Shown: positions 1,287-24,137 of the stretch, piece by piece
Layout of the letters: every line of letters begins with the position of its first letter
How positions within the stretch are numbered: the first letter of the stretch is position 1
Virus record (IMG/VR): IMGVR_UViG_3300010155_000054
Coordinates: 1 to 29,223 of that record
DNA from: a virus
Length of the DNA stretch: 29,223 bases
Direction: 5' to 3' (one strand)
The notes under the pieces: generated by a model
The model's input: only the letters and a program-made list of their open reading frames with translations
The model's database searches: none
What the model was told of the DNA's origin: nothing
Translations under genes and position numbers: made by a program

Positions 1287-1310
1287 AGTATTTATTTGCC
1301 TTAAATACTT
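1286..1310. repeat. Perfect 9-bp inverted repeat between tail tube gene and next gene
   Basis: AAGTATTTA (1286-1294), a 7-nt loop, and TAAATACTT (1302-1310) form a perfect inverted repeat. The right arm is the conserved promoter box of the next gene, so the left arm is the same box pointing the other way. The stem is AT-rich and not followed by a T-run on either strand, so a terminator is unlikely. It could be a hairpin at the tube mRNA 3' end or a two-fold factor site. Confidence 0.6.
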
Positions 1311-1316
1311 ATATGG
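1302..1316 (+). promoter_or_regulatory. TAAATACTT-N2-ATGG promoter/start motif
   Basis: TAAATACTTATATGG: the TAAATA hexamer ends exactly 5 nt before the ATG. In T4 late promoters (TATAAATA at -13 to -6) this spacing would place +1 on the A of the start codon. The same arrangement recurs at 3479, 24134 and, on the minus strand, 10240. Confidence 0.6.
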
Positions 1317-2128
1317 ACGTACAATCTCCTCCATCTGATGTAGGCGAATTAATCACAAAATTCTATCAACTACTCACAAGGTACGAGACTTTCCCTGCCG
1401 CCAAAAACTTCTTTCTAGTTAAAATAGAAAGTGTCCCATCTACAATTACAGATGACAATATACGAAAGCTAGGTTTTGGTCGAGTAACCTCAAGAGGTAT
1501 TGATATAGTTAAACCTCAATTTGAACCGCTTATATCAGGTAGTGAATACACATTAATAGCAACAGGAGTTGATACAAATACTGAAAAAACAAATACTGAA
1601 TCTCAATCTGAAAAATATAAAAATGGGTTACTACCAACCGGTCCATATACAACCGGACATGAATATAATGATACAGACTTAGATATTCAATTTTTAGAAA
1701 CTAATATTAGTTTTCTCGATGGAGTCATTAGACCATGGATTCAACTATATAGCGTATATGGTAATATGCAATTAAATGAAGGTGACCCTAAACTCACAAC
1801 TAATATAGATATATTTTTCATCTCAAAACAACTACCTCCATTTGACGCAAAAATACAAAGAGATATATTAAAAGTTCATAAAGATACAATCAGGGATCCT
1901 GGCGATCAAGCTCCAGCGGTCGATCCAGTTGTCCGAAAAATATACAAATACTATGATTGTATACCTCATGAAATTACTTCAGCGGGAGTTAGTGAATATA
2001 CCGGAGATATAGATATTGGTAGTATAGCAACAAAATGGAGATTTTCTAAATTTGACGTAAGTACTCCTGGATTTTTGGCTTCTAATACTGAAACTGATTT
2101 CGGGTTTGCCAAACACCCGAATTTTTAA
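1313..2128 (+). CDS. Tail-tube-fold structural protein, unassigned (possible tube initiator/terminator paralogue)
   Basis: A 271-residue protein with no single diagnostic motif. Its C-terminal half looks like a tube-fold pattern: ISFLDGVIRPWIQLYSVYG (helix and strand near residue 135-155), then NIDIFFISKQ, then KIYKYYDCIPHEITS followed by EYTGDIDIGSIATKWRFSKFDV. An order of W-bearing helix, aromatic strand with a P-x-x-I turn, and a final alternating strand is what gp19/gp48/gp54-type proteins show. Position right after the tail tube supports a tail-shaft role. A central Thr/Asn/Glu-rich stretch (about residues 87-105) is probably a disordered loop. Start ATG 1313 is fixed by the TAAATA-5 nt-ATGG motif. 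The assignment to a fold is inference; a precise T4 counterpart is not claimed. Confidence 0.55.
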   Translation: MDVQSPPSDVGELITKFYQLLTRYETFPAAKNFFLVKIESVPSTITDDNIRKLGFGRVTSRGIDIVKPQFEPLISGSEYTLIATGVDTNTEKTNTESQSEKYKNGLLPTGPYTTGHEYNDTDLDIQFLETNISFLDGVIRPWIQLYSVYGNMQLNEGDPKLTTNIDIFFISKQLPPFDAKIQRDILKVHKDTIRDPGDQAPAVDPVVRKIYKYYDCIPHEITSAGVSEYTGDIDIGSIATKWRFSKFDVSTPGFLASNTETDFGFAKHPNF

Positions 2129-2132
2129 AATC

Positions 2133-2822
2133 GTGATAAGTTATAATGATATAATCAAAATATCAACATTACATAATAATAAACAACACGACGAATTATT
2201 AGAATTTATTATTACTAAATTTCCTCATACAAATATTCTTGATTTATTACATAAAATAAAACAAGAACGATTTCTACACGATACAGACGCCATCAAATTT
2301 AATTATAATAAAAAAGAATTAGTAATTTATAAAGACAGTTTTTTAACTGAATTACCTGAATATTCAGAAGAACAAGTTATTGTAGATGATATTACTTTAA
2401 CTATAGGTTATCCAGCTGGAGATTTTTATAGTACGGCTGCTTTTATAAAAGAAATACAATACGAAGACACAATTTTAAAAATTGATAAAACTAATTATCA
2501 TGATATACCAATATCACTTATTAATAAATGTAATAAATATATAGAAAAATACTTAAATAAGCTAAATAAAAGCTACTTATATTTCGTTAACAAGGAATAC
2601 AGTTGTGGATTTTTATACTGTGAAGAGATAATTACTCATATAATACAATTATGTTTCGTACATGATGTAAATATATTATTAGAAGAACAATTATGCTTAA
2701 TGTCTCATAGCGGGTTTAATTATACAGATTTCAATCTCATTACATATGATCAATTCCGAAAATATGCAAAAATATATGTTAAGCAAGCAAAAAGAGAACA
2801 AGCACAATATAAACAAAAATGA
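2133..2822 (+). CDS. Unassigned small structural/assembly protein (position of gp51 or tail chaperone)
   Basis: About 229 residues, rich in Ile, Lys, Asn and Tyr, with no recognised motif and no membrane segment. There is no in-frame ATG near the 5' end: the choices are GTG at 2133, 4 nt after the preceding stop, or TTG at 2106 inside the previous gene. I prefer GTG 2133 because most junctions here are tight and without overlap of 20 nt or more. The C-terminus is lysine-rich (YVKQAKREQAQYKQK) and its stop overlaps the next start by ATGA, so the two products are likely made in fixed ratio. Lying between the tube and tape-measure genes it could be an assembly chaperone (T4 gp51 is adjacent to gp26), but sequence similarity is not visible. 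Confidence 0.6.
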   Translation: MISYNDIIKISTLHNNKQHDELLEFIITKFPHTNILDLLHKIKQERFLHDTDAIKFNYNKKELVIYKDSFLTELPEYSEEQVIVDDITLTIGYPAGDFYSTAAFIKEIQYEDTILKIDKTNYHDIPISLINKCNKYIEKYLNKLNKSYLYFVNKEYSCGFLYCEEIITHIIQLCFVHDVNILLEEQLCLMSHSGFNYTDFNLITYDQFRKYAKIYVKQAKREQAQYKQK

Positions 2823-3466: not shown

Positions 3467-3467
3467 T

Positions 3468-3482
3468 TAAATACTTACATGG
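3468..3482 (+). promoter_or_regulatory. TAAATACTT-N2-ATGG promoter/start motif
   Basis: TAAATACTTACATGG directly after the stop of the previous gene. TAAATA occupies 3468-3473 and the spacer CTTAC is 5 nt, so a T4-type late promoter would start transcription on the A of ATG at 3479. Confidence 0.6.
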
Positions 3483-5362
3483 AGTTAGGCGAGCAGCTTT
3501 TAACTGATATAAAAAAGAGCTTAGGTAACCTGGAGGTAAAAGTCGAGGAATTTACTGGTGATGAAAAATCTATTAAAAAGTCTCCTCTTAAAGTGTTCAC
3601 TACGTCAATTGACGACTTATCTGAAGCAGTTAAAAAATTAACAGAATCTTCTGCAGCTTCTCCCTCAGAAGCGACTATTACCTCTTTAGATAAAAGTGTT
3701 GCCTCTCTAGATCGAATTTTAAAAGATTATGGTACACACGTATCAACACATAAAAAAAGTTTAGATGACCATATAAAAGCATTAGAGGGAGCAACTGGAG
3801 ATTCAGATGGCGCCGGCGGTGGTGTTCGAAGATTATCTGGCGCTACTAGAGAACGAGGTCTTACGACAGACATCATAAAAGGAACTCTTATAACATCTAT
3901 AATTATAGGAGCATTTAAAAAATTAATGAGTCCAATAATGGCACCTATTCGTGCAATTAAAGATTCTAGTTTATTTTATCCTGCTCTGTTTTTCGCATTA
4001 TTCGGAGATGTACTAGAAGAAGGGTTTAAAGGGATAACTGACAGGTTAAGACAATGGCTAGATCCCACTGGAAGCTCTTGGTGGGACGAACTGCTAGGAA
4101 CTGGTATATTTGCTGTTGGTTGGTGGTCAAAGATTCCCGGGCTGATGCCTATAGGAATTCTAATAGGGTTCTTAGATCAACTTATGAATATCATAACCGG
4201 GGATTACCATTGGGCAATAAAACTTATAACGGCAATTAGTACACTTGTTATGTCTGGTTTTGCGATTAAGACCGCATATGGGATACTAAAAAAGGTATTT
4301 TATGATTGGCCGAAATGGTTAATTGCAGCGTGGCCACATTTTGCGGCCAAGTCGATGAAGGTACTCAAGGCAATTAAAAGCTTTTTTACATTTGGCTGGC
4401 TGACAAAATTATTTGCAGCCGGGGAATTTTTTGGTGCAGGAGGTGCGTTCCGTACCTTCTTCAAGTTCGGTTGGTTGACAAAATTATTTAAAGCGGGTAG
4501 TTTTTTTGGTAGAGGTGGCGCTATCGCAAAATTAATTATGAAAATTCCCGGTATAACAACTATTATAACTGCCGCGGTCGGAGCCATAACAGCCTTCACA
4601 ACGGCAATCGCCGGGCTGGTAGCATTTTTTATGACATATGTAAATATGTTCCGGGAACAAGTAAAAGCTGAGCAAGAAGCAGAAGGATTAAAAGAGGGAT
4701 TCGTAACAGAATCATATCGACTCAGGGATAAGAAACACCTGCAAAGAATGAGAGAAGGCGGGCGTTTCTCAGACGCCGAACTCGACGAGATGTCGCAACT
4801 TCAAAAAGATACAGCAAGACTTAGAGCGCTAGGTAATCGTCGGCATTCAGCGGGTAGAGTATATGAAGAAATGACTTGGTGGCAAAAATTTAAGGACCAA
4901 GGCGGCCCGCTCGGATGGGTTTGGCCTGATGGTTATAATTCAGCATTATCAGACCAAGAGGAAGAAGAGTATCAAGATTTGAGAGCATCTGAAGCAAAGA
5001 GTCGTGAGAGATATCACGAGCTTAAAAACCAACAAATAAACTTACAAACTAATAAAGAAGCAGGATATGATCTCCATAAACAGTTAAACCATCGAAATAT
5101 TGCCGAATCAATATTAAATCCAAACACTGTTGTTGGAATAGATCAAGCTTTAATAACACGAGAATATAAAGATGGGACGCTTGAAGCCTTAAGAACAATG
5201 GTAACTGAACTACAAACATCTGGAAAATCAATAGAGGTTCAAACAGAATTATTAGAGAAATTCTTACAGAGTGAAGGACTCCGGAAGCCAGGCGCTACTA
5301 TAATTGTTCAACCACCAGCAGATACAACTGACGACAGTGTATCTCATAAATATACAGAGTAA
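3479..5362 (+). CDS. Tape-measure-like tail protein with membrane helices
   Basis: 627 residues with three zones. Residues 1-105 are charged and helical (coiled-coil-like KKLTESS, LDKSVASLDRILKDY). Residues 130-390 are hydrophobic, with likely membrane or amphipathic segments near 131-147, 164-178, 205-235, 247-270 and 355-388. Residues 390-610 are charged helices again. A 25-residue tandem repeat lies at 302-351 (unit core FGWLTKLF-x-AG-x-FFG). This layout, together with its place between tube and baseplate-initiator genes, fits a tape measure (T4 gp29 is 590 residues) that sets tail length and enters the host envelope on infection. There is no lysozyme or peptidase motif. The DNA of the hydrophobic zone is visibly richer in GC than its neighbours. 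Start is set by the upstream TAAATA motif. Confidence 0.65.
   Translation: MELGEQLLTDIKKSLGNLEVKVEEFTGDEKSIKKSPLKVFTTSIDDLSEAVKKLTESSAASPSEATITSLDKSVASLDRILKDYGTHVSTHKKSLDDHIKALEGATGDSDGAGGGVRRLSGATRERGLTTDIIKGTLITSIIIGAFKKLMSPIMAPIRAIKDSSLFYPALFFALFGDVLEEGFKGITDRLRQWLDPTGSSWWDELLGTGIFAVGWWSKIPGLMPIGILIGFLDQLMNIITGDYHWAIKLITAISTLVMSGFAIKTAYGILKKVFYDWPKWLIAAWPHFAAKSMKVLKAIKSFFTFGWLTKLFAAGEFFGAGGAFRTFFKFGWLTKLFKAGSFFGRGGAIAKLIMKIPGITTIITAAVGAITAFTTAIAGLVAFFMTYVNMFREQVKAEQEAEGLKEGFVTESYRLRDKKHLQRMREGGRFSDAELDEMSQLQKDTARLRALGNRRHSAGRVYEEMTWWQKFKDQGGPLGWVWPDGYNSALSDQEEEEYQDLRASEAKSRERYHELKNQQINLQTNKEAGYDLHKQLNHRNIAESILNPNTVVGIDQALITREYKDGTLEALRTMVTELQTSGKSIEVQTELLEKFLQSEGLRKPGATIIVQPPADTTDDSVSHKYTE
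4382..4531 (+). repeat. Two-copy 75-bp in-frame tandem repeat inside tape-measure-like gene
   Basis: Units 4382-4456 and 4457-4531 abut exactly and encode 25 residues each; 18 of 25 residues are identical. The shared core is FGWLTKLF-x-AG-x-FFG-x-GGA. Many third codon positions differ (GGC/GGT, CTG/TTG), so the duplication is not recent and the protein sequence has been kept under selection. Confidence 0.85.
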
Positions 5363-5376
5363 AAATACAATTATGG
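5362..5376 (+). promoter_or_regulatory. Variant AAAATA-N5-ATGG promoter/start motif
   Basis: AAAATACAATTATGG overlaps the stop codon of the preceding gene. The last A of AAAATA (5367) is 5 nt before ATG 5373, the same geometry as the TAAATACTT class but with one change in the hexamer. It supports 5373 rather than the upstream TTG at 5304 as the start. Confidence 0.4.
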
Positions 5377-6710: not shown

Positions 6711-6713
6711 AAT

Positions 6714-9768: not shown

Positions 9769-10240
9769 ATTCTATCTTATCAGGGTCTCTTACATTTGCC
9801 TCTACGTTAATTACTTTTGAATCCTTCAATAAGCGATCAAGAACCTCTTCTCTACTTAACATTAATGCATGATGTTGGTCGGAATCTTGAAGTTCTTTTC
9901 TAGAATCTATATCTAATTGTTTTGCTTTTATTGTAGTGTTAGACTTTTTATCTTGAACAACTAATTTGTTTAATGTTTCAATGGCACCGGTAGATGCTTT
10001 AATTAATTCCGCAAGAGAAGATACATTTTCTGCCTCAGGCATATGATGAACAACCTCTTTCATATTATCTATTAACTCTAGAGAATCTTGTATTAATTTT
10101 GAAGATTTTTGAATAATAAATTGTTCAACATCTTCTTTAGATAAATTAGGTACATCTTCTACTGCACGTATTAATTTCTTATTATCTTTAGGTAATGTTT
10201 TTAGCTGTGATATTAAATCATCTGGATTAATGTCATCCAT
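9758..10240 (-). CDS. Small helical protein, possibly terminase small subunit-like (gp16), tentative
   Basis: 160 residues, wholly helical and charged. The central part, SSLAELIKASTGAIETLNKL then KKSNTTIKAKQLDI, recalls the central coiled-coil region of T4-type gp16 small terminases (about 164 residues; E-V/L-x-x-L-I/M-x-x-x-x-x-x-x-x-E-x-L-x-x-L), and the N-terminus is acidic (MDDINPDDLISQLK). The resemblance is weak and other helical phage proteins would look similar. Start: ATG 10240 is preferred over TTG 10264 because it carries a perfect TAAATACTT-N2-ATGG motif. The gene is divergent from dut and convergent with the upstream unassigned gene, with an 11-nt overlap at the stops. Confidence 0.6.
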   Translation of the reverse strand: MDDINPDDLISQLKTLPKDNKKLIRAVEDVPNLSKEDVEQFIIQKSSKLIQDSLELIDNMKEVVHHMPEAENVSSLAELIKASTGAIETLNKLVVQDKKSNTTIKAKQLDIDSRKELQDSDQHHALMLSREEVLDRLLKDSKVINVEANVRDPDKIESKQ

Positions 10241-10251
10241 AAAAGTATTTA
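10237..10251 (-). promoter_or_regulatory. Minus-strand TAAATACTT-N2-ATGG promoter/start motif
   Basis: Read on the minus strand: TAAATACTTTTATGG, with exactly 5 nt (CTTTT) between TAAATA and ATG. The motif thus occurs on both strands and always at a gene start. It lies in the 46-bp divergent gap before dut. Confidence 0.6.
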
Positions 10252-10286
10252 CTTGAAAAATCAAATATATACACTATATTTAATAC

Positions 10287-10796: not shown

Positions 10797-10803
10797 TAAG
10801 TAA

Positions 10804-11712
10804 ATGACAATTTCTGATATCTGGTGTGAGAAATATCGACCTAGTAATTTAGATGAGATAGTCTTAGATAAGAGTACTAAAACGTATTTTAATAAAGTAC
10901 AATCAGAACAGAATATATCTAATGTTTTATTTGTAGGGAAACCTGGTATCGGTAAAACTTCTCTAGCTAAAATTATTGTAAAAAATATCCTTAAATGTCA
11001 ATATCTCTACATCAATGCATCAGATGAAAACGGTATAGATACAATCCGTACAAAAGTTCTAAGCTTTGCTCAGACAAAGAGTCTCTTCGGGCAAATTAAG
11101 GTTATAATACTTGACGAGTGTGATGGATTATCTATTGATGCACAAAAAGCGCTACGCAACTCGATAGAAGAATATCACGATTTAACAAGGTTTATTCTCA
11201 CAGCAAATTATAAACATAAAATCATTCCAGCTCTGCAAAGTAGATGTCAAATATTTGATATTAGCTATGATAAAAATGAATATATAACTCAGCTTATTAA
11301 TATTGTAAAATCTGAAAAAATGAAAATAGGTAAAGAAGATTTTACTAATATAGCTGATAATTGTTATCCGGATTTCCGAAAAGGTATTAACGCACTTCAA
11401 AAGTATTATCTCTCCGATGGAAAAGAAACTTGTAATAATATTACGGAACATTTTTTTGATGGGTTAATAGAGCTACTAAAACAAAAAAAGTATTTTTTAA
11501 TTCGCAAGCAAATCATTGAAAATGAAACTTTGTTCAATAATGATTATGATGAACTATTTAAACGCTTATTCGATTTTATGTATATCAGTAGTATACCTGA
11601 AGACAAAAAAAGAGACTGTCTAATTACAGTCTCTAAATACTTTTATCAGAATAGTCAGTGTATAGATCAAGAGATCAACTTCTATTCTTGTATACTCGAC
11701 TTAAACATTTAA
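10804..11712 (+). CDS. gp44: Sliding-clamp loader ATPase subunit (T4 gp44-like)
   Basis: 302 residues, AAA+ clamp-loader subunit. It should hydrolyse ATP to open and place the sliding clamp (gp45) on primer-template DNA together with gp62. Visible motifs: WCEKYRPSNLDEI at the N-terminus, Walker A GKPGIGKT (45-52), Walker B IILDECDG (101-108; DECD instead of DEAD/DEFD), sensor 1 TAN (133-135), the arginine-finger SRC (146-148), and a sensor-2 block PDFRKGINALQKY (189-201), PDFRK being the T4-type version (archaeal and eukaryal RFC usually have GDMR or GDLR). Length is close to T4 gp44 (319). No gp62 or gp45 gene is in this window. It follows dut by 7 nt, probably one unit. Its stop shares TTAA with the convergent minus-strand gene, and its last 100 nt contain that gene's terminator on the opposite strand. 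Confidence 0.95.
   Translation: MTISDIWCEKYRPSNLDEIVLDKSTKTYFNKVQSEQNISNVLFVGKPGIGKTSLAKIIVKNILKCQYLYINASDENGIDTIRTKVLSFAQTKSLFGQIKVIILDECDGLSIDAQKALRNSIEEYHDLTRFILTANYKHKIIPALQSRCQIFDISYDKNEYITQLINIVKSEKMKIGKEDFTNIADNCYPDFRKGINALQKYYLSDGKETCNNITEHFFDGLIELLKQKKYFLIRKQIIENETLFNNDYDELFKRLFDFMYISSIPEDKKRDCLITVSKYFYQNSQCIDQEINFYSCILDLNI
11605..11634 (-). terminator. Rho-independent terminator (minus strand) within 3' end of gp44
   Basis: On the minus strand a perfect 9-bp stem AGAGACTGT / ACAGTCTCT with a 6-nt loop (plus coordinates 11611-11619, 11620-11625, 11626-11634) runs straight into a T7 tract (plus A7 at 11605-11611). It lies 75 nt past the stop of the minus-strand gene at 11709, so it should end that transcript inside the gp44 coding sequence. 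Confidence 0.8.
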
Positions 11713-12224: not shown

Positions 12225-12270
12225 TTAAATTATTTATTGTTTTAAGCACTTATAAATTAAATAATTATAC
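12225..12270. promoter_or_regulatory. Divergent 46-bp promoter region between minus-strand gene and gp25
   Basis: Minus strand: TAAATAATTTAAATG, TAAATA at plus 12231-12236, spacer 6 nt to ATG 12224. Plus strand: TAAATAATTATACATGG, TAAATA at 12258-12263, spacer 7 nt to ATG 12271; a second TATAAATT lies just upstream (12251-12258). The gap thus holds two back-to-back late-type boxes close to the two start codons. Confidence 0.5.
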
Positions 12271-12753: not shown

Positions 12754-12755
12754 CC

Positions 12756-14606
12756 ATGACTAATTATTCAAATACAGCTAAATTTACAGAGTTTAATCTA
12801 CCGACAGACGCATATACTGGGTTTGACGCTCAAAGTATGCGAGAACTAATTATTGCTCGTCTTAATAACGATAACGTTATTAATTTTACAGATCAAAATT
12901 TTGAAGGCAGTAACGTCTCTGCACTTATAGACATCATAGCATACTCATATCACACCTTACTATTCTATTTAAATCAAACTAGTGCAGAAAGTAATTTTGC
13001 AGACGCTCAATTATATGAAAATGTTAATAGAATAGTTAAATTAATAGGATATAAGCCTGTTGGTAAACAATCATGTATCTTGCCAATTACCATAAGTGCT
13101 AAATCAACAATGAGTACAGGTTATTTTACTATACCTAAATTTGCCTTTATGACGGCTGGTGGTCAAACATTTACTCTTGCACAAGATATAACGTTCGAAA
13201 AAATAACAGCCGGCACAGAAGAAGTGACACCTATAGATACACCGTTAGCGCATGAAGGTACTATAGAAGAATATCCTCTTATATATCCTATAGGAGAAAA
13301 TTTTGAAATAATAAATTTACTACCAGGTGCCCTTACAATTATAGATCATTTTAATATTTCTGTATATGTAAAAGAAACAAATAACCAAAATAAATGGTAT
13401 GAATGGAAGCGTGTACCTAGCTTATTTTTATCAAACCCTAACGATAGACATTTTGAAGCTCGGTATAATGAAAATAAAAATTATGAATTAAAATTTGGAA
13501 ATAGTGTTAATGGCAAAAAATTAATTTTAGGGGATGCTATAGCAATATACTACTTAAAATCATCCGGAACGGGTGGTAAGATGACAAAAAATGCATTAGC
13601 AAATGCATCTGTAAATATTTATAATAACGCTCGATATGATGCAATATTTGCTGATGTAAAAGATACTTCTCTTAATTATATTAGTATTGAAGAGAGTGTC
13701 GGAGTTACTATTACCAATTCAGAAGATAGTACTGATTTCGGAGAAGAGGAAACCGTAGCAGATATTAAACAAAATGCTCCTAGGTTCTTTAGTTCAGAAT
13801 ATAGATTAACTACAAAAGCAGATTATAAAACATTTCTAAGCCGTAATTATAAAAATTTAATATACGACGTCACAGTCCTTAATAACAGTGACTATATAAA
13901 TGATTATTTAAAATATCTTAATAATGATCTTGGATTAACTGATTTTTCAGAAGATACTAATGCATTAATTAACCAATATTATTATGCAGATAGTGCTGAT
14001 GCAAATAATATATATTTAAGTATAGTACCTAATTTACGCAAAAACAGGTCAGTAGTAACTAGAGCAAATTATCTATCACCATCTTTAAAAGAAAAAATTC
14101 AAAGAGAAATTACAGCGTACAAATTATTAAACAGTGAAATTTCTTTTATTGATCCAGTATATTTAAATTTAGATTTTTCAGTACGATTAAATCAAGAGCC
14201 TAAAAAAATATCATACCGAGATTATACTGAATTTCATATAATTAAAGAAGCAAGAGCATTAATAAGTACTGAAGAGCTAAAATCAAAAGTATGTAGTATT
14301 ATTACTACATATATTAACACCTTAAAGCTCGGCGACACAATTGATATAAAATATCTAAATAACGAAATTCAAAATATCGACGGAGTTGTCGACTTTGTAA
14401 CAAAACGTACGGATGTAGGCGTTGAAACTACAGGAATATCATTGTGCGTATATAATCCTATATATAACGGAAAAGATATAAAATTTATTGATACCGTATT
14501 TAAATTACGACCATATCAAATACCTTATATAGAAAACGAACAAGCATTTAAAAGTAAAATTAAAGTAACAAGTACACTATCTAATAAAGCAGTAATAGAA
14601 TATTAA
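12756..14606 (+). CDS. gp6: Baseplate wedge protein gp6 (baseplate J-like)
   Basis: 616 residues (T4 gp6: 660). The N-terminal segment, NFEGSNVSALIDIIAYSYH then LLFYLNQTSAESNF and DAQLYENVNRIVKLIGYKP (residues 47-101), is the characteristic gp6/BaseJ helix bundle. The C-terminal region carries the D-Y-x-x-F-L-x-x-x-Y (ADYKTFLSRNY) signature and the ELKSKVCSIITTYINTLKLGD / IDIKYLNNEIQNIDGVVDF elements seen in all gp6/gpJ proteins, which fold into the domain that closes the iris-like wedge ring. It starts 2 nt after gp25, and its stop overlaps the next start (TAATG). gp6 pairs with gp25 and gp53 to build the wedge core. Confidence 0.93.
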   Translation: MTNYSNTAKFTEFNLPTDAYTGFDAQSMRELIIARLNNDNVINFTDQNFEGSNVSALIDIIAYSYHTLLFYLNQTSAESNFADAQLYENVNRIVKLIGYKPVGKQSCILPITISAKSTMSTGYFTIPKFAFMTAGGQTFTLAQDITFEKITAGTEEVTPIDTPLAHEGTIEEYPLIYPIGENFEIINLLPGALTIIDHFNISVYVKETNNQNKWYEWKRVPSLFLSNPNDRHFEARYNENKNYELKFGNSVNGKKLILGDAIAIYYLKSSGTGGKMTKNALANASVNIYNNARYDAIFADVKDTSLNYISIEESVGVTITNSEDSTDFGEEETVADIKQNAPRFFSSEYRLTTKADYKTFLSRNYKNLIYDVTVLNNSDYINDYLKYLNNDLGLTDFSEDTNALINQYYYADSADANNIYLSIVPNLRKNRSVVTRANYLSPSLKEKIQREITAYKLLNSEISFIDPVYLNLDFSVRLNQEPKKISYRDYTEFHIIKEARALISTEELKSKVCSIITTYINTLKLGDTIDIKYLNNEIQNIDGVVDFVTKRTDVGVETTGISLCVYNPIYNGKDIKFIDTVFKLRPYQIPYIENEQAFKSKIKVTSTLSNKAVIEY

Positions 14607-17533
14607 TGAGCGATTCAATAAGTAATAATAATTTTCCTACAACTATACCAGTACCGCTTTCTATTACTGTAAATACATCCGCATCACCTCCACCGATAGT
14701 AACTGGACATCCGTTATCAAATACACACTCAGGGTTTACTCGTATATCTGAATTTACATTATTACCAGCGATAATCGGTGAAAATATATCTATGCAAGAT
14801 TATTTTCCTGATGGTTTATCCAACAGTACTGCAAAATGGGATTTTGGTGATGGATATACTCTTAGTGGTACAGATAATTTTACAGCAACACACACATATA
14901 ATGTACCGGGAATTTATACAGTATCAGTCTATTTATATAATAAAGACGGTGAAGCGTCATTTAGCTCTTTAACAGAAACAATATCAGTATATAATTATGC
15001 AGATACACATTTAGCAGTTGATACATCAAATATTACATATCAAGACGGATTAAGTTCTCGAGTTATGACGGCTAGTCAGAAAAAGACTTTTAATTTAGGA
15101 GTAACAGCCTCATGGCAAGATGTACCTAATCCTACTCTTCAAGACCAAACAATATTTTTCACAGCAAGTGGCAGCAAAACAAAACCATATGATTTTAATA
15201 ATAAATATGCGCATTTAATACCATACAATGCATTCTATGATATTAATGATAATCGTATTAATAGTATTAATGGTTTAACCACTATATTAAACCCTCATTA
15301 CTTTTATGTTAATACAGATAATACTATAACTCGGTCATTAGAAAAAGACATTACAACAAATACTGCAGTATTATTATATTCAAGTACTGATGCGGTGCAG
15401 CAGAAAGGCACAGGTGTTACTACAATATCTAATCCTACAAAATTTAGCTACTATGATGATATACCAACTGAACAAGTTAATCTATTAATTAAATTAAATA
15501 CAAGCAACCATAAATTAAAAAGCTTTTATGTAGACGGAGTAGAGGTTGATATTAATACAAGTGGATTAAATTATCAAGAAACAGATATCGCTAGAGCTCG
15601 TGTAAGATCAAAAGCAACTATTAATGAAAGAACAAGTACTACGCTCGGAGTACCTGTTAAAATTTTAGCACCATTTACAAGTCGATTATCTTTCACATCT
15701 ACTGGCATGAAAGAAATGTCAGGTATACAATATAAAAGACAAGGTGATAAATTTCAAGTGTTTGTTGCATTAGCAGACGATAAATTAAACATAGGAAAAT
15801 ATTATTCACCATTTTTCCATGAACCAATTAATAATTTTATAACTTTAAATAATGGTAATTTTACATCGGCACTATCAGGAACATCTGCAGACCCATCAAC
15901 TTGGACTACCGATGGTCACGATGGATGGGAATACGGGTCGGCAGGTATAGATGGAGGATTAAATGATTATCCTATTTCAGGTATATATAGATCAGGCTGG
16001 ACGTGGGATAACGGATATGCCGAACATATTGACATGGACGACTCAACCGGGAATCCATCTGGAATCGCTGATAATTTATACCAAGATATAAATACAACTC
16101 TCGGAAATGAGTATAAAATTACTTTAACTATATCTGGTTATAGTGGAGACGGACATATAAGAGTATTTCTCGGTACTAGTGATCCTACCCCACCATACTA
16201 TAAAGAAGGGTTAAAGGGAGATGGAACTTATACGATACTTGTTGATGCCGATATGAATGCACCGCAGAGACTATTCATACAAGCAAGCCCTGATTTTGTA
16301 GGTAAAGTAGATAATATTTCACTAGATATTTGTCAATTTTATTATAACTGGAGTGACGGTAACACAACAACAACAAGTAATATAAGCAGTGTAAGTACTA
16401 CTAACCTACCATTTAATACGACATCAAACGCAACAGAATTAAGTAGTTTTTTATATCTTAATATTGATCCGCTCGAAGCTGGAACATGGACATTAAACAT
16501 AACTGGAAGATTAGATTCATTTGTAAGTAATCCTGCGACATCTATTGGTGAAATAATTGATTATGATCCCGATGGGCCGCTTGGTCCTGTATCAGTAGGG
16601 ATCGGGGTAACAGTTCCTCCAGGAGTTGTTGTTAATAATTTAATTACCGGTTCTTATACTTTTACAGTTTTTCCTTCTACAAACGATACTGAAATTTATA
16701 AAATTAATGAAGATATAGATTATTCAGAAGTACTTAAAAGTTATAGATTTCAATCTTTGTTAACCGAATATGATAACTTATTCGATGGTGTGTTTACTTC
16801 GTTTGTAGGAGCCGCCAGCTCAACACCGACGTCATTCGGTAAAACAATTGTAGAAAAAATAGCAAATTTTACTATGAACAATAGCGATGTTGATTTTTGT
16901 AAAATTGAAAATATAAAATCCTTCTATGCTTTTTTAAATGAAGAGATAGATTTTACAACACCAGCACCACCTCCTGAATTAAAGAGATTATATAATCTAT
17001 TTAGTATAAAAATTTCTAAACTATTAGGAGAGTATCAACGGGTTAATGAAAATTTTGATACACACTTTTATACTTCCTCTGCTTATGGTAGAAATATCGA
17101 TCTTACAAGCCCGATTACATCATTAACATATGAAGTAACCGCCGGAACTAATTTTATTGCTAGACAAAAATTTAATAATCAATATATTTTTATTAAACCC
17201 CAAACCGTACCTACAATAAGAGTTGATGGTTCATCTTCAGGAGTATCAACTACATATCCTCTCTCTGCATATAATGTATATAATAACTGGGGTTGGCCGT
17301 TAGATACAACAATAAGTGGTGCTTCCGGGTTGGATTTATTTTATGAGTTTTATCCATTTGTATCATATGATACTACAGAAAATACGTATATTCAAAACAA
17401 TATTATAGATTTTAATAATACATATAATTCAGTCACCCGATCCCAATCATCACTCAGTGCCAATTGGGAACATGAAAATGGTATAGTGTTTAAGAATGTA
17501 GATTATCAAATTAGAAAAGGATTACAATTATAA
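14606..17533 (+). CDS. Large baseplate/adhesin protein with PKD and CBM-like domains
   Basis: 975 residues, starting by TAATG overlap with gp6 and so likely a baseplate component. A PKD domain lies at residues 77-129 (KWDFGDGYTLSG then THTYNVPGIYTVSVYLYN, the textbook WDFGDG and H-x-Y-x-x-x-G-x-Y-x-V signatures). Residues about 413-575 look like a carbohydrate-binding beta-sandwich of CBM_4_9 type: NGNFTSALSGT, DPSTWTTDG, NLYQDINTTLGNEYKITLTI, then DFVGKVDNISLDI (the final G-x-I/V-D-N-I/V-S strand is diagnostic). A second NWSDGN lies near residue 585. The C-terminus is enriched in aromatics and ends in KNVDYQIRKGLQL. In T4 gp6 is followed by gp7 (1032 residues), a wedge component; position and size agree, but sequence is not comparable by eye. 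Sugar-binding domains in such a place suggest surface attachment. Confidence 0.7.
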   Translation: MSDSISNNNFPTTIPVPLSITVNTSASPPPIVTGHPLSNTHSGFTRISEFTLLPAIIGENISMQDYFPDGLSNSTAKWDFGDGYTLSGTDNFTATHTYNVPGIYTVSVYLYNKDGEASFSSLTETISVYNYADTHLAVDTSNITYQDGLSSRVMTASQKKTFNLGVTASWQDVPNPTLQDQTIFFTASGSKTKPYDFNNKYAHLIPYNAFYDINDNRINSINGLTTILNPHYFYVNTDNTITRSLEKDITTNTAVLLYSSTDAVQQKGTGVTTISNPTKFSYYDDIPTEQVNLLIKLNTSNHKLKSFYVDGVEVDINTSGLNYQETDIARARVRSKATINERTSTTLGVPVKILAPFTSRLSFTSTGMKEMSGIQYKRQGDKFQVFVALADDKLNIGKYYSPFFHEPINNFITLNNGNFTSALSGTSADPSTWTTDGHDGWEYGSAGIDGGLNDYPISGIYRSGWTWDNGYAEHIDMDDSTGNPSGIADNLYQDINTTLGNEYKITLTISGYSGDGHIRVFLGTSDPTPPYYKEGLKGDGTYTILVDADMNAPQRLFIQASPDFVGKVDNISLDICQFYYNWSDGNTTTTSNISSVSTTNLPFNTTSNATELSSFLYLNIDPLEAGTWTLNITGRLDSFVSNPATSIGEIIDYDPDGPLGPVSVGIGVTVPPGVVVNNLITGSYTFTVFPSTNDTEIYKINEDIDYSEVLKSYRFQSLLTEYDNLFDGVFTSFVGAASSTPTSFGKTIVEKIANFTMNNSDVDFCKIENIKSFYAFLNEEIDFTTPAPPPELKRLYNLFSIKISKLLGEYQRVNENFDTHFYTSSAYGRNIDLTSPITSLTYEVTAGTNFIARQKFNNQYIFIKPQTVPTIRVDGSSSGVSTTYPLSAYNVYNNWGWPLDTTISGASGLDLFYEFYPFVSYDTTENTYIQNNIIDFNNTYNSVTRSQSSLSANWEHENGIVFKNVDYQIRKGLQL

Positions 17534-19812
17534 TGATTGAACAATATAATACAACTACCCCATTATCATATTTAGAGTGGAAATCACATTATGAAGATAG
17601 TTATGATTCATCTGATCTACCTGTATTATATAATAATTATTTAGCTGATTGGAAGGAAGAGAAAGTAACAAGAACAACAGTTACAGCTGATTATACTAAA
17701 ACTATATATAAACAATTTTTAAAAAATATAAATCTTAGTACCTTAAGCAGCGACATACATATATTTCTTAATAGACTCGATACAGATAATATTTATGAAT
17801 TAGAATTAGCAGTTCATTATTATTCTAATATAATAAAAGACCAATTAAAGAATATTTGTAGTATAAGAGAAGAACTCCAATTTACTAAAACAAAAAATAA
17901 ACTTAAATCCTCTAGAAAAGGGATTACAAGTTACCTTAAAAACTTCATTCTAAAATTACTCAGTAACAAAGAGTTTGTCACTGAAGGTACTGACACACAT
18001 ATTACTGATATATCTATAGAAAGAATAGCGAATAATATACAAATTAATTTAGATACATATGTCGCTGATAGCTTCGTATATAGCGACAATAAAGTAAATA
18101 AGAATCTGATTTTAAATATGAACACTAGAGTTATAGAAGAAATGTATAATATAACTCAAGTGTTATCTATTAATAAAGATAATAAACCTCTTAAAATCAG
18201 AATAAATAATACTTCTTCTCCGAATAGTATAGTTGGTATAAATCAACCTTTTACTAATTGGGAACGACTACCAGTTAGATATTTTAAAGACGAAACTAAA
18301 ACTATAGAAAATTTAAAATTTATTTTTGAGAGGGGGCTAATTGAAAAATATTTATCTAATGATTTGTACTATTTAGAAAGTAAAAATAAAACATTAATTA
18401 AATTATTTGAACATGAAAATACTACAAATAATCTTTCTCAAAGATATAAACCTAATTTATTCGTACAATTAACTGATATTAAAAACAAGCAAGTATTTCC
18501 ACAGCAATTATGTTTTTATAACGCAGGTATCACTCCGTTTTATTCAAGTAACTTAACGTTTACAATAAATATGTCTGCACTTAACGGACAAAATTATATT
18601 ATACCTGATCCATCGAAATTTCAACCAGGTGTAACAACTACAGGGTTTGTTAAGGATAGTATTACTGGTGAAATAATTAAAAACCTAACAAGCAAGCGGA
18701 AGGTACCAATAACTTTTAGCAATAAAACTGCACACTTTAAAAATACTAATGTAGGTACATCTACTAATATTTATAATAATAAAATTTTACGTAATTATGG
18801 ATATCAAAGTAAAGAGAATAGTATAGATTATTCACACACAGGTATTAATAGAAAAGAAGATAATATAAGTTTTTGGGACAATGATAAAACTCATGTTGTA
18901 TGGCAAAACACTGATACATATCCAATAGAAGGCTTAAATATATATCCCGAATCCTCACGACTTGAAGACTTATTAATAACAAATAAAACTGGAATAAAAC
19001 TAAAAAGTGATATTTATGGCAATGAGTTCCTTTTTATTAAATCAGTATACCCTAAAAGATTAGCTGGTATTGATTATATTCCAGCTCCAGAGTCAACAGC
19101 AAGTGCATGTATAACTAGTGCAGAATATTATGATGGTTTGTTTTTTAATCCGCTTCTTTCAGCATTGAGTGCCGCGTATTATGAAACACACAATACATTA
19201 TTAGATGGTATTACAGCAATATATGATACGTTTGTTTATAATGATACACCAAGCTGTGATAATGGTAGTGCGGAATTATTTTCAGCTCCTTTAACAGATT
19301 ATTCGTGTGATACTTTATTTACAGACGCGCTTTCATGTGGTTCAGTCTCAGCAACATCTGCTATAGACTGCGGCTCTTTTCTTAATCATCCAGGAGATTC
19401 AACTGATTTATTAATGGCATATTTTCAAGAAACAACTGTACCGTATTTTACGATAGATACAACAGCTATATATTCCAACAGATCTACATCTTATGAAAGC
19501 ACCACTCTCAATAATTTTGCTACTAGTGCAGTTCATTTATTTGAACAACAATATGTAAGTGCAGGTGAGATTTATGTAAGAAATGCAGGCACTCAATTAG
19601 TATCACCACTATCAGCAGCCTTTAGTGATATATTTAATAAGCATACCAACTCGACAAAATCTAATATTTTAACTAGCAGTAATATTTTAGATTTTGACAT
19701 TATAGAGAATACAATATATATACAAACATCCGCAGAGACAATAACTGAAAAATATAAATTTAAAGAGAATAAATTTAAAATCGATGCGAGCTCGAAAACG
19801 ATAATAATCTAG
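17533..19812 (+). CDS. Unassigned large structural protein
   Basis: 759 residues, TAATG overlap with the upstream gene, so translationally coupled to it. The N-terminal 160 residues are helical and lysine-rich (WKSHYEDSYDSSDLPVLYNN, IYELELAVHYYSNIIKDQLK, ITSYLKNFILKLLSN), then the sequence turns beta-rich with many Asn, Thr and Ser. A block at about residues 574-613 carries four regularly placed cysteines (SCDNG, YSCDT, LSCGS, IDCGS). No known domain is visible; there is no signal peptide or collagen-like repeat. Position suggests a baseplate wedge or fibre-attachment role (T4 gp8/gp9/gp10 region). Confidence 0.6.
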   Translation: MIEQYNTTTPLSYLEWKSHYEDSYDSSDLPVLYNNYLADWKEEKVTRTTVTADYTKTIYKQFLKNINLSTLSSDIHIFLNRLDTDNIYELELAVHYYSNIIKDQLKNICSIREELQFTKTKNKLKSSRKGITSYLKNFILKLLSNKEFVTEGTDTHITDISIERIANNIQINLDTYVADSFVYSDNKVNKNLILNMNTRVIEEMYNITQVLSINKDNKPLKIRINNTSSPNSIVGINQPFTNWERLPVRYFKDETKTIENLKFIFERGLIEKYLSNDLYYLESKNKTLIKLFEHENTTNNLSQRYKPNLFVQLTDIKNKQVFPQQLCFYNAGITPFYSSNLTFTINMSALNGQNYIIPDPSKFQPGVTTTGFVKDSITGEIIKNLTSKRKVPITFSNKTAHFKNTNVGTSTNIYNNKILRNYGYQSKENSIDYSHTGINRKEDNISFWDNDKTHVVWQNTDTYPIEGLNIYPESSRLEDLLITNKTGIKLKSDIYGNEFLFIKSVYPKRLAGIDYIPAPESTASACITSAEYYDGLFFNPLLSALSAAYYETHNTLLDGITAIYDTFVYNDTPSCDNGSAELFSAPLTDYSCDTLFTDALSCGSVSATSAIDCGSFLNHPGDSTDLLMAYFQETTVPYFTIDTTAIYSNRSTSYESTTLNNFATSAVHLFEQQYVSAGEIYVRNAGTQLVSPLSAAFSDIFNKHTNSTKSNILTSSNILDFDIIENTIYIQTSAETITEKYKFKENKFKIDASSKTIII

Positions 19813-19827
19813 TAAATAATTTAAATG
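19813..19827 (+). promoter_or_regulatory. TAAATAATTTAAATG promoter/start motif
   Basis: The 15 bases TAAATAATTTAAATG are identical to those before the minus-strand gene at 12224. The TAAATA-to-ATG spacer is 6 nt. It begins right after the TAG stop of the previous gene (19810-19812). Confidence 0.5.
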
Positions 19828-22800
19828 TTCGAAACGAAACAATCAGATGTATTTTATAATGAACAAACAAAACAAATGTTTGTTTGTACTGTAAGCTCCA
19901 TTTCTGGATATAAATGCGAAGGATCCAGTGAGAGAATTTATAGTGCTGTTCCTATAATTTATAAAATAGATCAAGACACAAATTATAAGTCACGTGTATA
20001 TCCGAGAGATTTAGATACATTTCTATCTGACGGGAGCACTACATCACAAAATAGTGAATTATTTGATCTAACTCCTAGATGTACCCCGAACAACGTTGAG
20101 AGTCAAACACAGTTTACAAGCATTACAAAACCTCTCTTAAATTATAATAAAACAAAAGATAGATATTCAGTTACATTTTTAGGTAAATATTCAGATTTAG
20201 ATGACGGGTTTGGAATTTATAATTATATTTTTCAATATATAGATACTTCATTTTATTTATTAGATGCAAAGAACTACGTACCAGATAAACCGTCTGCATT
20301 CCATTTCTTAAATGGATATATAAGCTCTGATCTTATTACTGGAGGTAATACTATACGTAATTACGATGATAATTGGTATGCTGATACTGTTCGTACACCA
20401 AATTATCTAATTAGTCCTACATACCTCCATCATAATAATAGCTTAGGATTTAATTTAATGCAAATCGATAATGATCAATTTGTAGATCATATCATTACTG
20501 GTGCCATGACCGGTGATGTACAGTACCCGTTAATGTATAGTGGAGGATTTATTACATATAATCCTAAATATACAACATTTGATCCTACACATGATATTCG
20601 TGTAGATTTTACAGCTAGATCATTTAATGTTAATCCTATGACTGCATTTGGATCTGTACAAGACGATGACCCACCATCTAGATGGATTGAAAAATACGTA
20701 CTTGATGATCCCACAGATGCAGGTAGTGGCTTTTGTGTATATTTTCATAATGATGTACAAGAGGATGATGCGACCATTGTACCTAATGGTGTAGGTAGTA
20801 CATTAGGATACTCATCGGCAACTGAAAATGTAAATGAAGTTGCTGGTATTACGCAACCAGTGGACGGGTTATTTGTTGAAAGAGGTAACATAGGTGAAGG
20901 CAGAGGTGAACCAGCGAATAGCTTTTTAGGAATAGGGTTTGATATTGAAGGTGATTTCTGTACTACTTCAGAAGGTAAACCAGGCTGGGTTGATGGTACG
21001 GTATCATTTACAACTTCACCGTGTTCGGTTGGTATTAGAGGTAATAGGCGTCATGATACAAAAGTATTAACTTGTATACCAATGACAACAGTAGCTGCCA
21101 GTGCCGTGCCGATGCATACAAATACAGTATCATACCCGCAAGGCTTGGCTGCAGCTGATGTTCCATTTGTAGATTATAGAATTGATCTTTCAGAAAAAGG
21201 TTCTAGACTTACAGTATATAATAAATTAACTAGCGATACTGATTATAATACAATATTAGATCTTAATTTAAACAGTACGCCCGGTGATGGTAATCCTATA
21301 GGAGGTTGTATAGGATATGATCCGTGGGGTAATATAGGAGAGCCTTTAGTAATAACTCCAACATTAGCTCCACTCAATATCGGATTAACATTTACAACTG
21401 CTAACTCATGTAGTTATTTTGAATTATTATCGTTTGAAGCTACTGGTAATAAAATAGGTGATCCTAATAAAAAACAAAAGAAACAAAGCAGTAATAAAGC
21501 TATAGAATATTTAGAAGAATCATCTAAGAATTTAAGAAGAAAATTAGTTACTATTGATTCAGATAATCCAGTTGATATGCAAATGCTTATCCCTCTTGAG
21601 TCTATGTTAGATAGAATTTCTCTATGTGATATGCCTCGAAAGCTAACATCAATTGATGTTGAAATAAAATGGACTGGTATTCCACCGCACCGTATTCCTG
21701 GTAGATTACCAATACCACATTTTCAACCAAATTTGTGTTTTGAATATTATAGAACAATAACGGACGCCGCTGGGACTGACCACAGCATCGTGGAAATACC
21801 TATAGAACAGCAAGGAAATTTTAATCACACCGCGCTGTATGGGAACGATCCGGAGTGTCTAACTGTGCGCGGGCTCGAGATGGGATTGGACTTAGGAAAG
21901 GCGTACAATGTATTTGTAACTAGAGCAATCACCGATCAATTAAAGGCAGTTGAAAAGGCTGGAACAAATTGTGGTGAGCTTCGTTGGAGAGATACTAATG
22001 AACTTTATGGTTCAGTAACTGCAACAACAATTACTCTTACGACCCCAGAAACAGAAAACCCAGAAATACAATCCTTTGTAACAACTCATTTAGTTAATCC
22101 TGAAGGAGCGGGATGGAATTATCGAAGCGTTCCATGTCCATCTGAAATACCGGTGAAAGACAAGGGTAGTGGATTAGATCCAAACGATTGGACACCTGGT
22201 TGTTTCGTCTTGCCGATGCACGTCGCGGGCCATAATTATGCTAATAGAGAGATATGGTATATACCATTTGAAATAAAAGGAAGGACCTTTTACTTATTTA
22301 TAGAGTCTAACTTTTTTAATTGGAGCTCGGACGCCGTAGTCACAGCTAGTGATGGTAAACAATATTTCGCAGGTGAGATGGCGTATGGTGACAAGACGCT
22401 GAGTGATGAACTTCAGGCCGCGTGGGGTACGACGACGATAAAAGTCGATGGCGAAACGCTCAAAGGCGTACCTGTAGTAGCATCCTACGACAGAGGTGAT
22501 CTAAAAGACTGGCAAATCGCTAACACGACCAAATACTATAGCGGTTTGCCCGAAGGTACTATTGCTGAATTGGTCCGCATCAACTTGACGACCACCAAAA
22601 CGTATCTGGAACACTTCCCGGGTCGGGACCTGGAAACTAATCCACCAACTCCTGAGGAACTGGCGATCGTGTATCTGAAGACGACCAGATGGTCGTATTA
22701 CGGTAAATATCCTTCATACTTTCATGGTGAAGAATTTCAATATACAAAAGAAATAGGCGAAATGTTTATAAACAGTGATGTATTTAAAAATAATCAAGAT

Positions 22801-23049
22801 CAACAATATTGGGAAATAGTGGGTGGTGGTGGTGGGCATTACTTCCGGAACTTCGACGGTGTAATAATGTATGACAACCAAGACTATGGATCAGAACTTT
22901 ACGATATGAAAGAAGTAACGTTTGAAGTTATTCCTAATACAGAAGTCTTTGAATATTCGAGGTGTGATCCAGCTTGGTCACAAGGAGAAAAACCCGGATT
23001 CGGTATAGGGCATCCGTTCCCAACTGCTGGTACGCCACCTGATGATTAA
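19825..23049 (+). CDS. Large adhesin-like protein with an L-type (legume) lectin-like domain
   Basis: 1074 residues. Residues about 255-545 look like a concanavalin-type L-type lectin sandwich: GFCVYFHND (302-310), GVGSTLGYS (322-330), FLGIGFDIEGDF (368-379, the V-E-F-D-T-like strand), CSVGIRGNRRH (400-410, the H-V-G-I-like strand), YRIDLSEKGSRLTVY, and SCSYFELLSFEATG (the G-F-S-A-x-T-G-like end). It contains several cysteines. After a lysine-rich linker (near 555-580) there is a second, poorly defined part to the C-terminus, whose codons are far more GC-rich than the rest. Ends with a Gly-rich run (VGGGGGHYF). A lectin-like domain in a tail-region protein suggests binding to glycan receptors. 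The domain is by pattern only; no signal peptide or catalytic residues are seen. Confidence 0.65.
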   Translation: MFETKQSDVFYNEQTKQMFVCTVSSISGYKCEGSSERIYSAVPIIYKIDQDTNYKSRVYPRDLDTFLSDGSTTSQNSELFDLTPRCTPNNVESQTQFTSITKPLLNYNKTKDRYSVTFLGKYSDLDDGFGIYNYIFQYIDTSFYLLDAKNYVPDKPSAFHFLNGYISSDLITGGNTIRNYDDNWYADTVRTPNYLISPTYLHHNNSLGFNLMQIDNDQFVDHIITGAMTGDVQYPLMYSGGFITYNPKYTTFDPTHDIRVDFTARSFNVNPMTAFGSVQDDDPPSRWIEKYVLDDPTDAGSGFCVYFHNDVQEDDATIVPNGVGSTLGYSSATENVNEVAGITQPVDGLFVERGNIGEGRGEPANSFLGIGFDIEGDFCTTSEGKPGWVDGTVSFTTSPCSVGIRGNRRHDTKVLTCIPMTTVAASAVPMHTNTVSYPQGLAAADVPFVDYRIDLSEKGSRLTVYNKLTSDTDYNTILDLNLNSTPGDGNPIGGCIGYDPWGNIGEPLVITPTLAPLNIGLTFTTANSCSYFELLSFEATGNKIGDPNKKQKKQSSNKAIEYLEESSKNLRRKLVTIDSDNPVDMQMLIPLESMLDRISLCDMPRKLTSIDVEIKWTGIPPHRIPGRLPIPHFQPNLCFEYYRTITDAAGTDHSIVEIPIEQQGNFNHTALYGNDPECLTVRGLEMGLDLGKAYNVFVTRAITDQLKAVEKAGTNCGELRWRDTNELYGSVTATTITLTTPETENPEIQSFVTTHLVNPEGAGWNYRSVPCPSEIPVKDKGSGLDPNDWTPGCFVLPMHVAGHNYANREIWYIPFEIKGRTFYLFIESNFFNWSSDAVVTASDGKQYFAGEMAYGDKTLSDELQAAWGTTTIKVDGETLKGVPVVASYDRGDLKDWQIANTTKYYSGLPEGTIAELVRINLTTTKTYLEHFPGRDLETNPPTPEELAIVYLKTTRWSYYGKYPSYFHGEEFQYTKEIGEMFINSDVFKNNQDQQYWEIVGGGGGHYFRNFDGVIMYDNQDYGSELYDMKEVTFEVIPNTEVFEYSRCDPAWSQGEKPGFGIGHPFPTAGTPPDD
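21764..21905. other. GC-rich in-frame island 4a (lectin-like gene)
   Basis: 21841-21900 is 33/60 GC (55%), with CGC, GGG, CTC and GAC codons, in an otherwise AT-rich gene. It encodes the start of the C-terminal part, ITDAAGTDHSIVE... to GLEMGLDLGKAYN. Confidence 0.6.
22330..22700. other. GC-rich in-frame island 4b (lectin-like gene)
   Basis: 22381-22440 and 22621-22680 are both 33/60 GC (55%); both ends fall back to AT-rich coding by about 22320 and 22720. Codons such as GCC, GCG, ACG, CTG and GAC become frequent. The residues (about 836-958) are not low complexity, so this is a compositionally different domain rather than a linker. Confidence 0.7.
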
Positions 23050-23056
23050 TTAAAAG

Positions 23057-24115
23057 ATGAATACATATACATATACAGTTAGTGCAGAACCTCAAATAAC
23101 GAGTTCTCTCTCCACTTTCTCGGCTTCATTGACTGGTACAACTAATGTAACGTTTTCTCTTTCTGGTCTTTCAGCGTATGACATCAATCCAACAAAAAAA
23201 ATTAATAAAGTAATCGTTGATTTTAAAAAAGATGGATCAGATGAATTAATAATAAACCGACCAATTTCCACGACGACAATACCAGTAATTTCAACTAATA
23301 CATTTACTCATGTTATTGAAACTGAAGCAATCGATAATGCTCTAAAAAATGTATATTTAACTCTATATAGAGACGATTTAGAAGTTGATATAATTGATAT
23401 TAAATTTACTATGATACGACCTCCAATCGGAACATATGAAGATATTAATTTAATTAACACTGATTATTTTACAACAGACGAAGATGACGAAAAAATATTA
23501 TTAACATTTATTAAAAAAAATCCAGAAGTATTAGGTTTAAGTTTAATAGATTTAGAAGTACTAGCTAGTAGTGAATTTGATCCTGGCTTAACTACAACTC
23601 AAACTATTAGCAGTGAATCCTTTAATATTGGGTTCACTACTGAATATGTACAAATAGATGCCTCTAATTCTAATACCGGAGATAGTATACTAGTACAACT
23701 TTCCGAAATTATAAATCCAATAACAAAACAACCAAAAAATAATAATGATATTACTGTTAAATACAGAACAAGAGCAAGTACTTATGGCCATATAAATATA
23801 CCTGGAGATATAAGCGCATATTATGTACCATTAACTGCTAATTCGTCATTTATACATCTTAGCGGGTTTATAAACTGGAATTGTGGAGATATAATTAAAG
23901 ACATAGAATTAAGCAATAAAGTAGTAAATATACCGTTAGTAGATATCGTTGGAACTAGAACAGATTTAGCTGATTATTACTTTACAAATGTCGGGATGGG
24001 GGCATCAGTAACTCCAATATCTGGTGGATACTTTTATGTAGATTTATATAATACTGTTAGTTGTGATACACTGACAACAACAATAAGTACCATAACTGCG
24101 TTTATAAATTATTAA
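23057..24115 (+). CDS. Unassigned Ser/Thr-rich structural protein
   Basis: 352 residues. The N-terminal 125 residues look like one or more Ig/PKD-type sandwiches: KKINKVIVDFKKDGSDELII resembles a PKD strand that lost its WDFGDG, and ends at IDIKFTMIRPPIG. The middle has an acidic stretch (TTDEDDEKILL), and the C-terminal part is Ser/Thr/Asn-rich beta (SGYFYVDLYNTVSCDT). No enzymatic motif or membrane helix. It starts 7 nt after the previous stop. It likely is a decorating or fibre-associated protein on the tail, by position; no specific function is claimed. Confidence 0.55.
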   Translation: MNTYTYTVSAEPQITSSLSTFSASLTGTTNVTFSLSGLSAYDINPTKKINKVIVDFKKDGSDELIINRPISTTTIPVISTNTFTHVIETEAIDNALKNVYLTLYRDDLEVDIIDIKFTMIRPPIGTYEDINLINTDYFTTDEDDEKILLTFIKKNPEVLGLSLIDLEVLASSEFDPGLTTTQTISSESFNIGFTTEYVQIDASNSNTGDSILVQLSEIINPITKQPKNNNDITVKYRTRASTYGHINIPGDISAYYVPLTANSSFIHLSGFINWNCGDIIKDIELSNKVVNIPLVDIVGTRTDLADYYFTNVGMGASVTPISGGYFYVDLYNTVSCDTLTTTISTITAFINY

Positions 24116-24122
24116 TACGAAT

Positions 24123-24137
24123 TAAATACTTATATGG
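24123..24137 (+). promoter_or_regulatory. TAAATACTT-N2-ATGG promoter/start motif
   Basis: TAAATACTTATATGG, the same 15 bases as before the gene at 1313. TAAATA is at 24123-24128 and ATG at 24134, spacer exactly 5 nt. Upstream is a short AT-rich gap after the stop of the preceding gene. Confidence 0.6.

Follow-up and report, generated by a model that had tools for sequence, protein, structure and literature searches.

Gene content and box sites of the window

The window analysed here, the whole 29,223-base stretch of IMG/VR record IMGVR_UViG_3300010155_000054, carries a T4-like tail module with sheath, tail tube, tape measure and baseplate wedge proteins, the last including members of the gp25 and gp6 families. 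A dUTPase and a clamp loader are also encoded among these tail genes. The clamp-loader gene (gp44-like, 10804-11712) lies beside the dUTPase gene within the baseplate cluster, whereas in T4 it is found in the replication cluster.

A preliminary description of this DNA had reported the pattern TAAATACTT-N2-ATGG before the genes that start at 1313, 3479 and 24134 on the plus strand and at 10240 on the minus strand. Exactly these four sites are present, with TAAATACTTNNATGG at 1302-1316, 3468-3482 and 24123-24137 (plus strand) and at 10237-10251 (minus strand), and the reversed pattern does not occur in the window. The looser spacers that it listed, of 6 nt before 19825 and 12224 (minus strand), 7 nt before 12271 and 11 nt before 696, are likewise as described. 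The window as a whole has no excess of TAAATA (97 occurrences, with 90.6 expected). At position -11, however, it precedes 4 of 20 called starts versus 1 of 947 other ATGs (Fisher P = 7e-7), and thus the non-random feature is the position of the box, not its frequency.

In the numbering of the T4 late promoter, the two bases before TAAATA are -13 and -12 (PMC2988020), which puts TAAATA itself at -11 to -6 and +1 at a distance of 11 nt from the first T. For a box at -11 of a start codon, the predicted +1 therefore falls on the A of ATG, and a nearer box would cut the codon, which is the limit observed. By this rule the predicted +1 is the A of ATG for gene 1313 (box at 1302-1307, plus strand), and leaders of 0 nt are predicted for the tape-measure gene 3479 (3468-3473, plus strand), gene 10240 (10246-10251, minus strand) and gene 24134 (24123-24128, plus strand). 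The predicted leader is 1 nt for genes 12224 (12231-12236, minus strand) and 19825 (19813-19818, plus strand), 2 nt for the gp25 baseplate wedge gene 12271 (12258-12263, plus strand) and 6 nt for the tail tube gene 696 (679-684, plus strand; predicted +1 at 690).

These positions recur in related phages when starts are fixed by orthology. The box stands at -11 in all 12 orthologues of gene 10240 and all 13 of gene 24134 (31-50% protein identity), at -12 in 19 of 19 for gene 12224, at -13 in 20 of 20 for gp25, at -17 in 7 of 7 for the tail tube gene, at -11 to -15 in 25 of 25 for gene 19825, and at -11 to -13 in five of the six for gene 1313. For the tape-measure gene, of which no orthologue starts were recovered, the prediction comes from the window itself. 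In the gene 24134 set, box and spacer are invariant, and the DNA further upstream has diverged (mean majority-base frequency 0.66).

The sequence AAAATA-N5-ATGG, which had been proposed as a variant at 5373, is indeed present (AAAATA at 5362-5367, plus strand), but its status as a variant is not supported. The enrichment of AAAATA at -11 is weak (4 occurrences, with about 1.2 expected), and in the two orthologues of 5373 that were recovered the variant is not seen and no TAAATA occupies its place. We therefore rejected AAAATA as a true form of the box, and gene 5373 probably has none.

Two divergent intergenic regions of 46 nt were noted in the window. In one (10241-10286), a late box stands back-to-back with a sigma70-type promoter, and in the other (12225-12270) two late boxes are back-to-back; all of these elements are start-proximal. 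The 46-nt gap upstream of gp25 was found again in ten genomes. The sigma70-type promoter, TTGAAA-16-TATATT at 10253-10280 (plus strand), precedes the dUTPase gene 10287 with its -10 hexamer at -12, so that the predicted +1 is again the A of ATG.

Position of the box across the clade

The gp6 protein was used to scan IMG/VR, and 80 relatives were recovered, including records of 200, 132, 122, 119, 116 and 115 kb. The 200-kb relative has a direct repeat at its ends (the last 40 bases reappear at base 80), as for a complete circular genome. Among the T4-type proteins encoded by the relatives are gp17, gp20, gp23, gp41, gp43 and UvsX. Genes were called by codon use with our own caller, which is blind to the motif, and nine long relatives together with the window gave 984 called starts, a set in which orthologous genes are non-independent.

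Across these 984 starts, TAAATA was found 96, 58, 28, 14 and 30 times at -11, -12, -13, -14 and -15, respectively, against a far-upstream background of about 2 per position. At each of -10, -9 and -8 it was found fewer than 4 times, i.e., at background, such that the cut-off is one-sided. Among ATGs that are not starts, only 0.05-0.18% have TAAATA at -11. The 200-kb genome by itself has 17 boxes at -11 and 14 at -12, compared with 18 summed over the 30 positions from -60 to -31; since this genome alone repeats the picture, the histogram is not due to repeated counting of orthologues. The preliminary description had suggested such a genome-wide histogram, and its sharp, one-sided rise at -11 rules out random distances between box and start. 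Such a pattern would be predicted by a model in which the transcript begins 11 nt beyond the first T and the AUG must stay uncut. The box positions imply leaders of 0 to about 6 nt. The proposed fusion of promoter and start codon is thus well supported computationally, with the amendment that about one-third of boxed genes have an implied leader of exactly 0 nt and the others one of 1-6 nt.

Operon heads, internal genes and gene classes

The box is a feature of operon heads. It precedes 52% of genes whose upstream neighbor lies on the other strand versus 2.3% of co-directional genes that overlap their neighbor, and about half of the divergent heads are without it. Starts within operons had been described as boxless, and this holds in the window and for nearly all of their orthologues. 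For example, the internal genes 12756 (gp6), 14606 and 17533 (together 12756-19812, plus strand) have neither a box nor a Shine-Dalgarno (SD) sequence; their starts lie 2 or -1 nt from the stop codon before them, and they are probably translationally coupled. More generally, 472 of the 714 boxless co-directional genes begin between -40 and +4 relative to the stop codon before them, and the commonest intergene gaps overall are -4, -1 and -8, which makes coupling the likely route to later cistrons.

When each recognized gene was traced to the nearest upstream promoter-like element, all 72 assignable virion genes led back to TAAATA. Replication genes were led by a TTGA/TATAAT (sigma70-type) element in 31 cases, by both elements in 7 and by TAAATA in 12; because the latter belong to the gp32 and gp61 operons, the split between late and early genes is imperfect. 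The sigma70-type early promoters are likewise placed for leaderless starts (predicted leaders of 0-4 nt). The -10 hexamer lies at -12 in 33 of the 51 clade genes with a sigma70-like element (search range -16 to -12), and in an unrestricted TATAAT histogram of heads without a late box the peak is again at -12 (14 occurrences), with 0-1 at nearer positions.

Capsid, sheath and protease genes (gp23, gp18 and gp21, respectively) are exceptions with a longer leader, in some cases with an SD-like AAAGG. In relatives, the longer leader of gp23 and gp18 (e.g., at G001:8752, plus strand) carries an SD-like AAAGG(A). Such leaders at capsid and sheath genes suggest that the host ribosome may still use SD sequences for the most abundant proteins.

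Sequence around the box

Where a leader is implied, the base at the predicted +1 is a purine in 136 of 165 cases, compared with 47% in the leader background, even though this base lies outside the start codon. When the box is at -11, the base directly before ATG is a pyrimidine in 99% of cases. No -35 element was detected upstream of the box, as the information content is at most 0.42 bit at every position from 1 to 30 (259 boxes). Relative to the T4-type promoter TATAAATA, the TAAATA core is retained; T-13 and A-12 are not conserved (A in 70% at -13, mixed bases at -12), and +1 is predicted. An archaeal TATA box was considered and rejected, as it would sit about 25-37 nt upstream (PMC3160421), not 11.

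The G at +4 had been counted as part of the element. It is present in all five cases with a 5-nt spacer, and across the clade in 42% of boxed genes versus 18% of others. However, the class with the box at -12 has it in 10%, and in the SD-led late genes of phage Melnitz the bias is equally strong (54%). We therefore rejected it as a promoter element; its more likely source is the second codon of late proteins, which is often Ala.

Transcription apparatus

The preliminary description had named a gp55-like late sigma factor, gp33 and gp45 as partners to look for in the rest of the genome. The gp55 region lies outside the 29-kb window, which is a fragment, and homologues of the sigma factor were found in six relatives (phrog_234, E about 1e-28; 7e-29 and 2e-28 in two of them). 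These proteins (in G001-G003 and G005-G007) share a nearly invariant KDYDxELYT end and are without the C-terminal LDFL clamp motif of T4 gp55; perhaps this tail makes a different clamp contact. Searches of the relatives for gp45 with Pfam PF09116 and profiles gave nothing significant. A conserved family of about 245 residues has weak sequence similarity to gp45, and its structural model, built from 16 sequences (pLDDT 87.6), matches PCNA and beta clamps over the full length (Foldseek 1.6e-12; Z 21.1 to PCNA, rmsd 2.4 over 224 residues). On the strength of this predicted fold, the family is a predicted sliding clamp, and the expectation of a gp45 counterpart is borne out to that extent. For gp33, no significant match was found in the relatives with the T4 protein as query, which barely detects the known gp33 of pelagiphages and cyanophages.

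Shine-Dalgarno sequences

SD-like words precede 9% of clade starts, compared with 10% in a control window, and are thus at background; among near-box genes they occur in 8 of 244. Elsewhere the frequency is 64% in T4, 81% in CP220, 55% in HTVC008M and Mosig, and 0.34 in S-PM2, with a range of 0.55-0.81 over T4, pelagiphages, methylophages and Campylobacter phages.

Two relatives encode the ribosomal protein bS21 (G001:80975-81127, i.e., L089:975-1127; and G004:60388-60537, i.e., L113:388-537, minus strand), both with Phe at position 54 by our own count. In Bacteroidetes bS21, a Tyr at the matching position blocks the anti-SD (PMC9723584), and the phage bS21 could be linked to the missing SD.

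Proposed fusion of late promoter and start codon

The boxes are very probably T4-type late promoters fused or nearly fused to the AUG, which use a gp55-like sigma factor and a clamp and give leaderless late mRNAs with coupled later cistrons. In such a mechanism, host RNA polymerase with the phage gp55-like sigma would read the TAAATA boxes, assisted by the phage sliding clamp, and transcription would begin at a position, 11 nt beyond the first T, that coincides with the A of AUG or precedes it by no more than about 6 nt. With a start at or near the AUG, the late operon mRNAs would be leaderless or nearly so. The first cistron would then be initiated at the 5'-terminal AUG without an SD, and later cistrons would be reached mostly by translational coupling at overlapping ATGA/TAATG junctions. 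From the computed features of these genomes we infer where the 5' ends lie, that gp55 acts at the boxes and that the host ribosome initiates without a leader.

The alternative that survives best accepts the box as a leaderless promoter and assigns its reading to a host sigma or another phage factor. The gp55 assignment was made by homology only, and neither the TA of T4 at -13/-12 nor its LDFL clamp motif is retained. Nevertheless, the TAAATA core, the lack of a -35 element, the A/T-rich melting region and the late targets are all traits of the late promoters of T4, and six relatives encode a gp55 homologue, which makes another factor unlikely. Still less probable, and in our view carrying only a slim chance, is that the A/T-rich segment TAAATA-NTTAY acts in translation, as a landing site for host ribosomes working without SD on mRNAs that begin further upstream. 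The segment does occupy the usual place of the SD, and SD motifs are missing genome-wide. Against this, genes inside the same operons lack the segment and are still translated, early heads have the quite different TTGA/TATAAT element at a matching distance, the cut-off is one-sided, the purine follows the box and not the ATG, and in pelagiphages the box is also found at -20 to -45, where it is accompanied by an SD. Finally, a chance product of A/T-rich intergenic DNA, to which the unexceptional number of TAAATA words in the window might point, is refuted by the histogram (96 at -11 versus about 2 expected, and the rarity at non-start ATGs) and by the invariance of the box in orthologues despite diverged upstream DNA.

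Cultured phages and other known systems

HTVC008M and Mosig are SAR11 phages that grow on Pelagibacter ubique HTCC1062. Like the clade, these pelagimyophages and the methylophage Melnitz have a subset of genes, many of them late, with the box at -11 and no SD. TAAATA stands exactly at -11 in 9 genes of HTVC008M (several of them tail and head-completion genes), 6 of Mosig and 2 of Melnitz, most without SD. Unlike in the clade, where SD words are at background, most of their genes keep an SD. Within each pelagimyophage the two arrangements divide: an SD accompanies 2 of 13 near boxes versus 9 of 10 far boxes (-20 to -45) in HTVC008M (P = 6e-4), and 0 of 7 versus 15 of 18 in Mosig (P = 2.5e-4). 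The gp55 proteins of HTVC008M, Mosig and Melnitz are among the closest to those of the clade (41-44%).

In T4 late transcription, promoter, leader and ribosome-binding site are separate parts. T4 late promoters, which depend on gp55, gp33 and gp45, share with the clade the TAAATA core, the lack of a -35 element, the A/T-rich melting region and virion genes as targets, and both T4 and the relatives encode a gp55-like sigma and a sliding clamp (in the clade by predicted structure). In contrast to the clade, most T4 boxes are found 18-60 nt upstream and are separated from the start by an SD (25 of the 27 far boxes have one), and only one box is at -11 to -15; T4 also keeps the TA at -13/-12 and has a gp33, of which none was found in the clade. 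The cyanophage S-PM2, with late promoters of the form NATAAATA (PMC2984593), is also a marine T4-like phage with the same core, but has no TAAATA at -11 to -15. Indeed, near-start boxes are few or absent in T4, S-PM2 and the Campylobacter phages, the pattern count in P-SSM2 equals its reversed control (6 and 6), and Rhodothermus phage RM378 gave 0 matches. Among named phages no close relative of the clade was found, as gp6 matches are all below 60% identity, those listed at 21-26%. Bacterial and archaeal genomes were scanned twice with alignments of gp6 and gp17, and no relative that would indicate a host was found.

The late promoter of vaccinia virus, TAAATG, is an element fused to the start codon; it is alike in this fusion and unlike in virus lineage and polymerase. 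In bacteria, leaderless 'TA-led' genes have a -10-like element roughly 12 bp upstream of the start codon and no SD (Zheng 2011, PMC3160421; for Deinococcus-Thermus, PMC12340547). The clade shows both the start-proximal box, within about 12 nt of the start, and the absence of SD; TA-led genes use the -10 box of the housekeeping sigma, whereas the clade uses mainly a phage late box. Middle and late mRNAs of Thermus phage phiYS40 are leaderless (PMC3594737). Its later transcripts thus resemble those proposed for the clade. To our knowledge, phiYS40 is not a T4-type gp55 system.

Leaderless expression of this kind is therefore already known from phiYS40 (PMC3594737) and from bacterial promoter boxes at about -12 (PMC3160421). 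What is new is the proposed leaderless use of a T4-type late promoter across a phage clade with SD at background, and no papers on leaderless T4-type late promoters were found in the open-access literature (subscription journals being outside this scope). In these uncultured marine T4-related phages, a widespread group, the T4 late promoter type appears to have become one with the start codon. If so, the box offers a rule for locating true gene starts and late operons in genomes of the clade. It may also explain why an earlier prediction of late promoters in pelagimyophages was unsuccessful (PMC7029224). As HTVC008M and Mosig are in culture and show the pattern for part of their late genes, the proposal is testable now, and these phages would allow leadered and leaderless late mRNAs to be compared within one infection.

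It is tempting to speculate further that the clade gave up the SD almost wholly, with nearly all operon heads made leaderless through gp55-type and sigma70-type promoters, both classes joined to the start codon, coupling inside operons, and phage products such as bS21 perhaps tuning the ribosome. Pelagiphages like HTVC008M and Mosig would then be intermediate. We regard this wider scenario as possible but tentative, and rather less probable than not.

The gain or loss of boxes can be seen at the gene start at 28942 (minus strand), where TAAATA is present in some relatives and absent from others and from the window. This is promoter turnover between close relatives.
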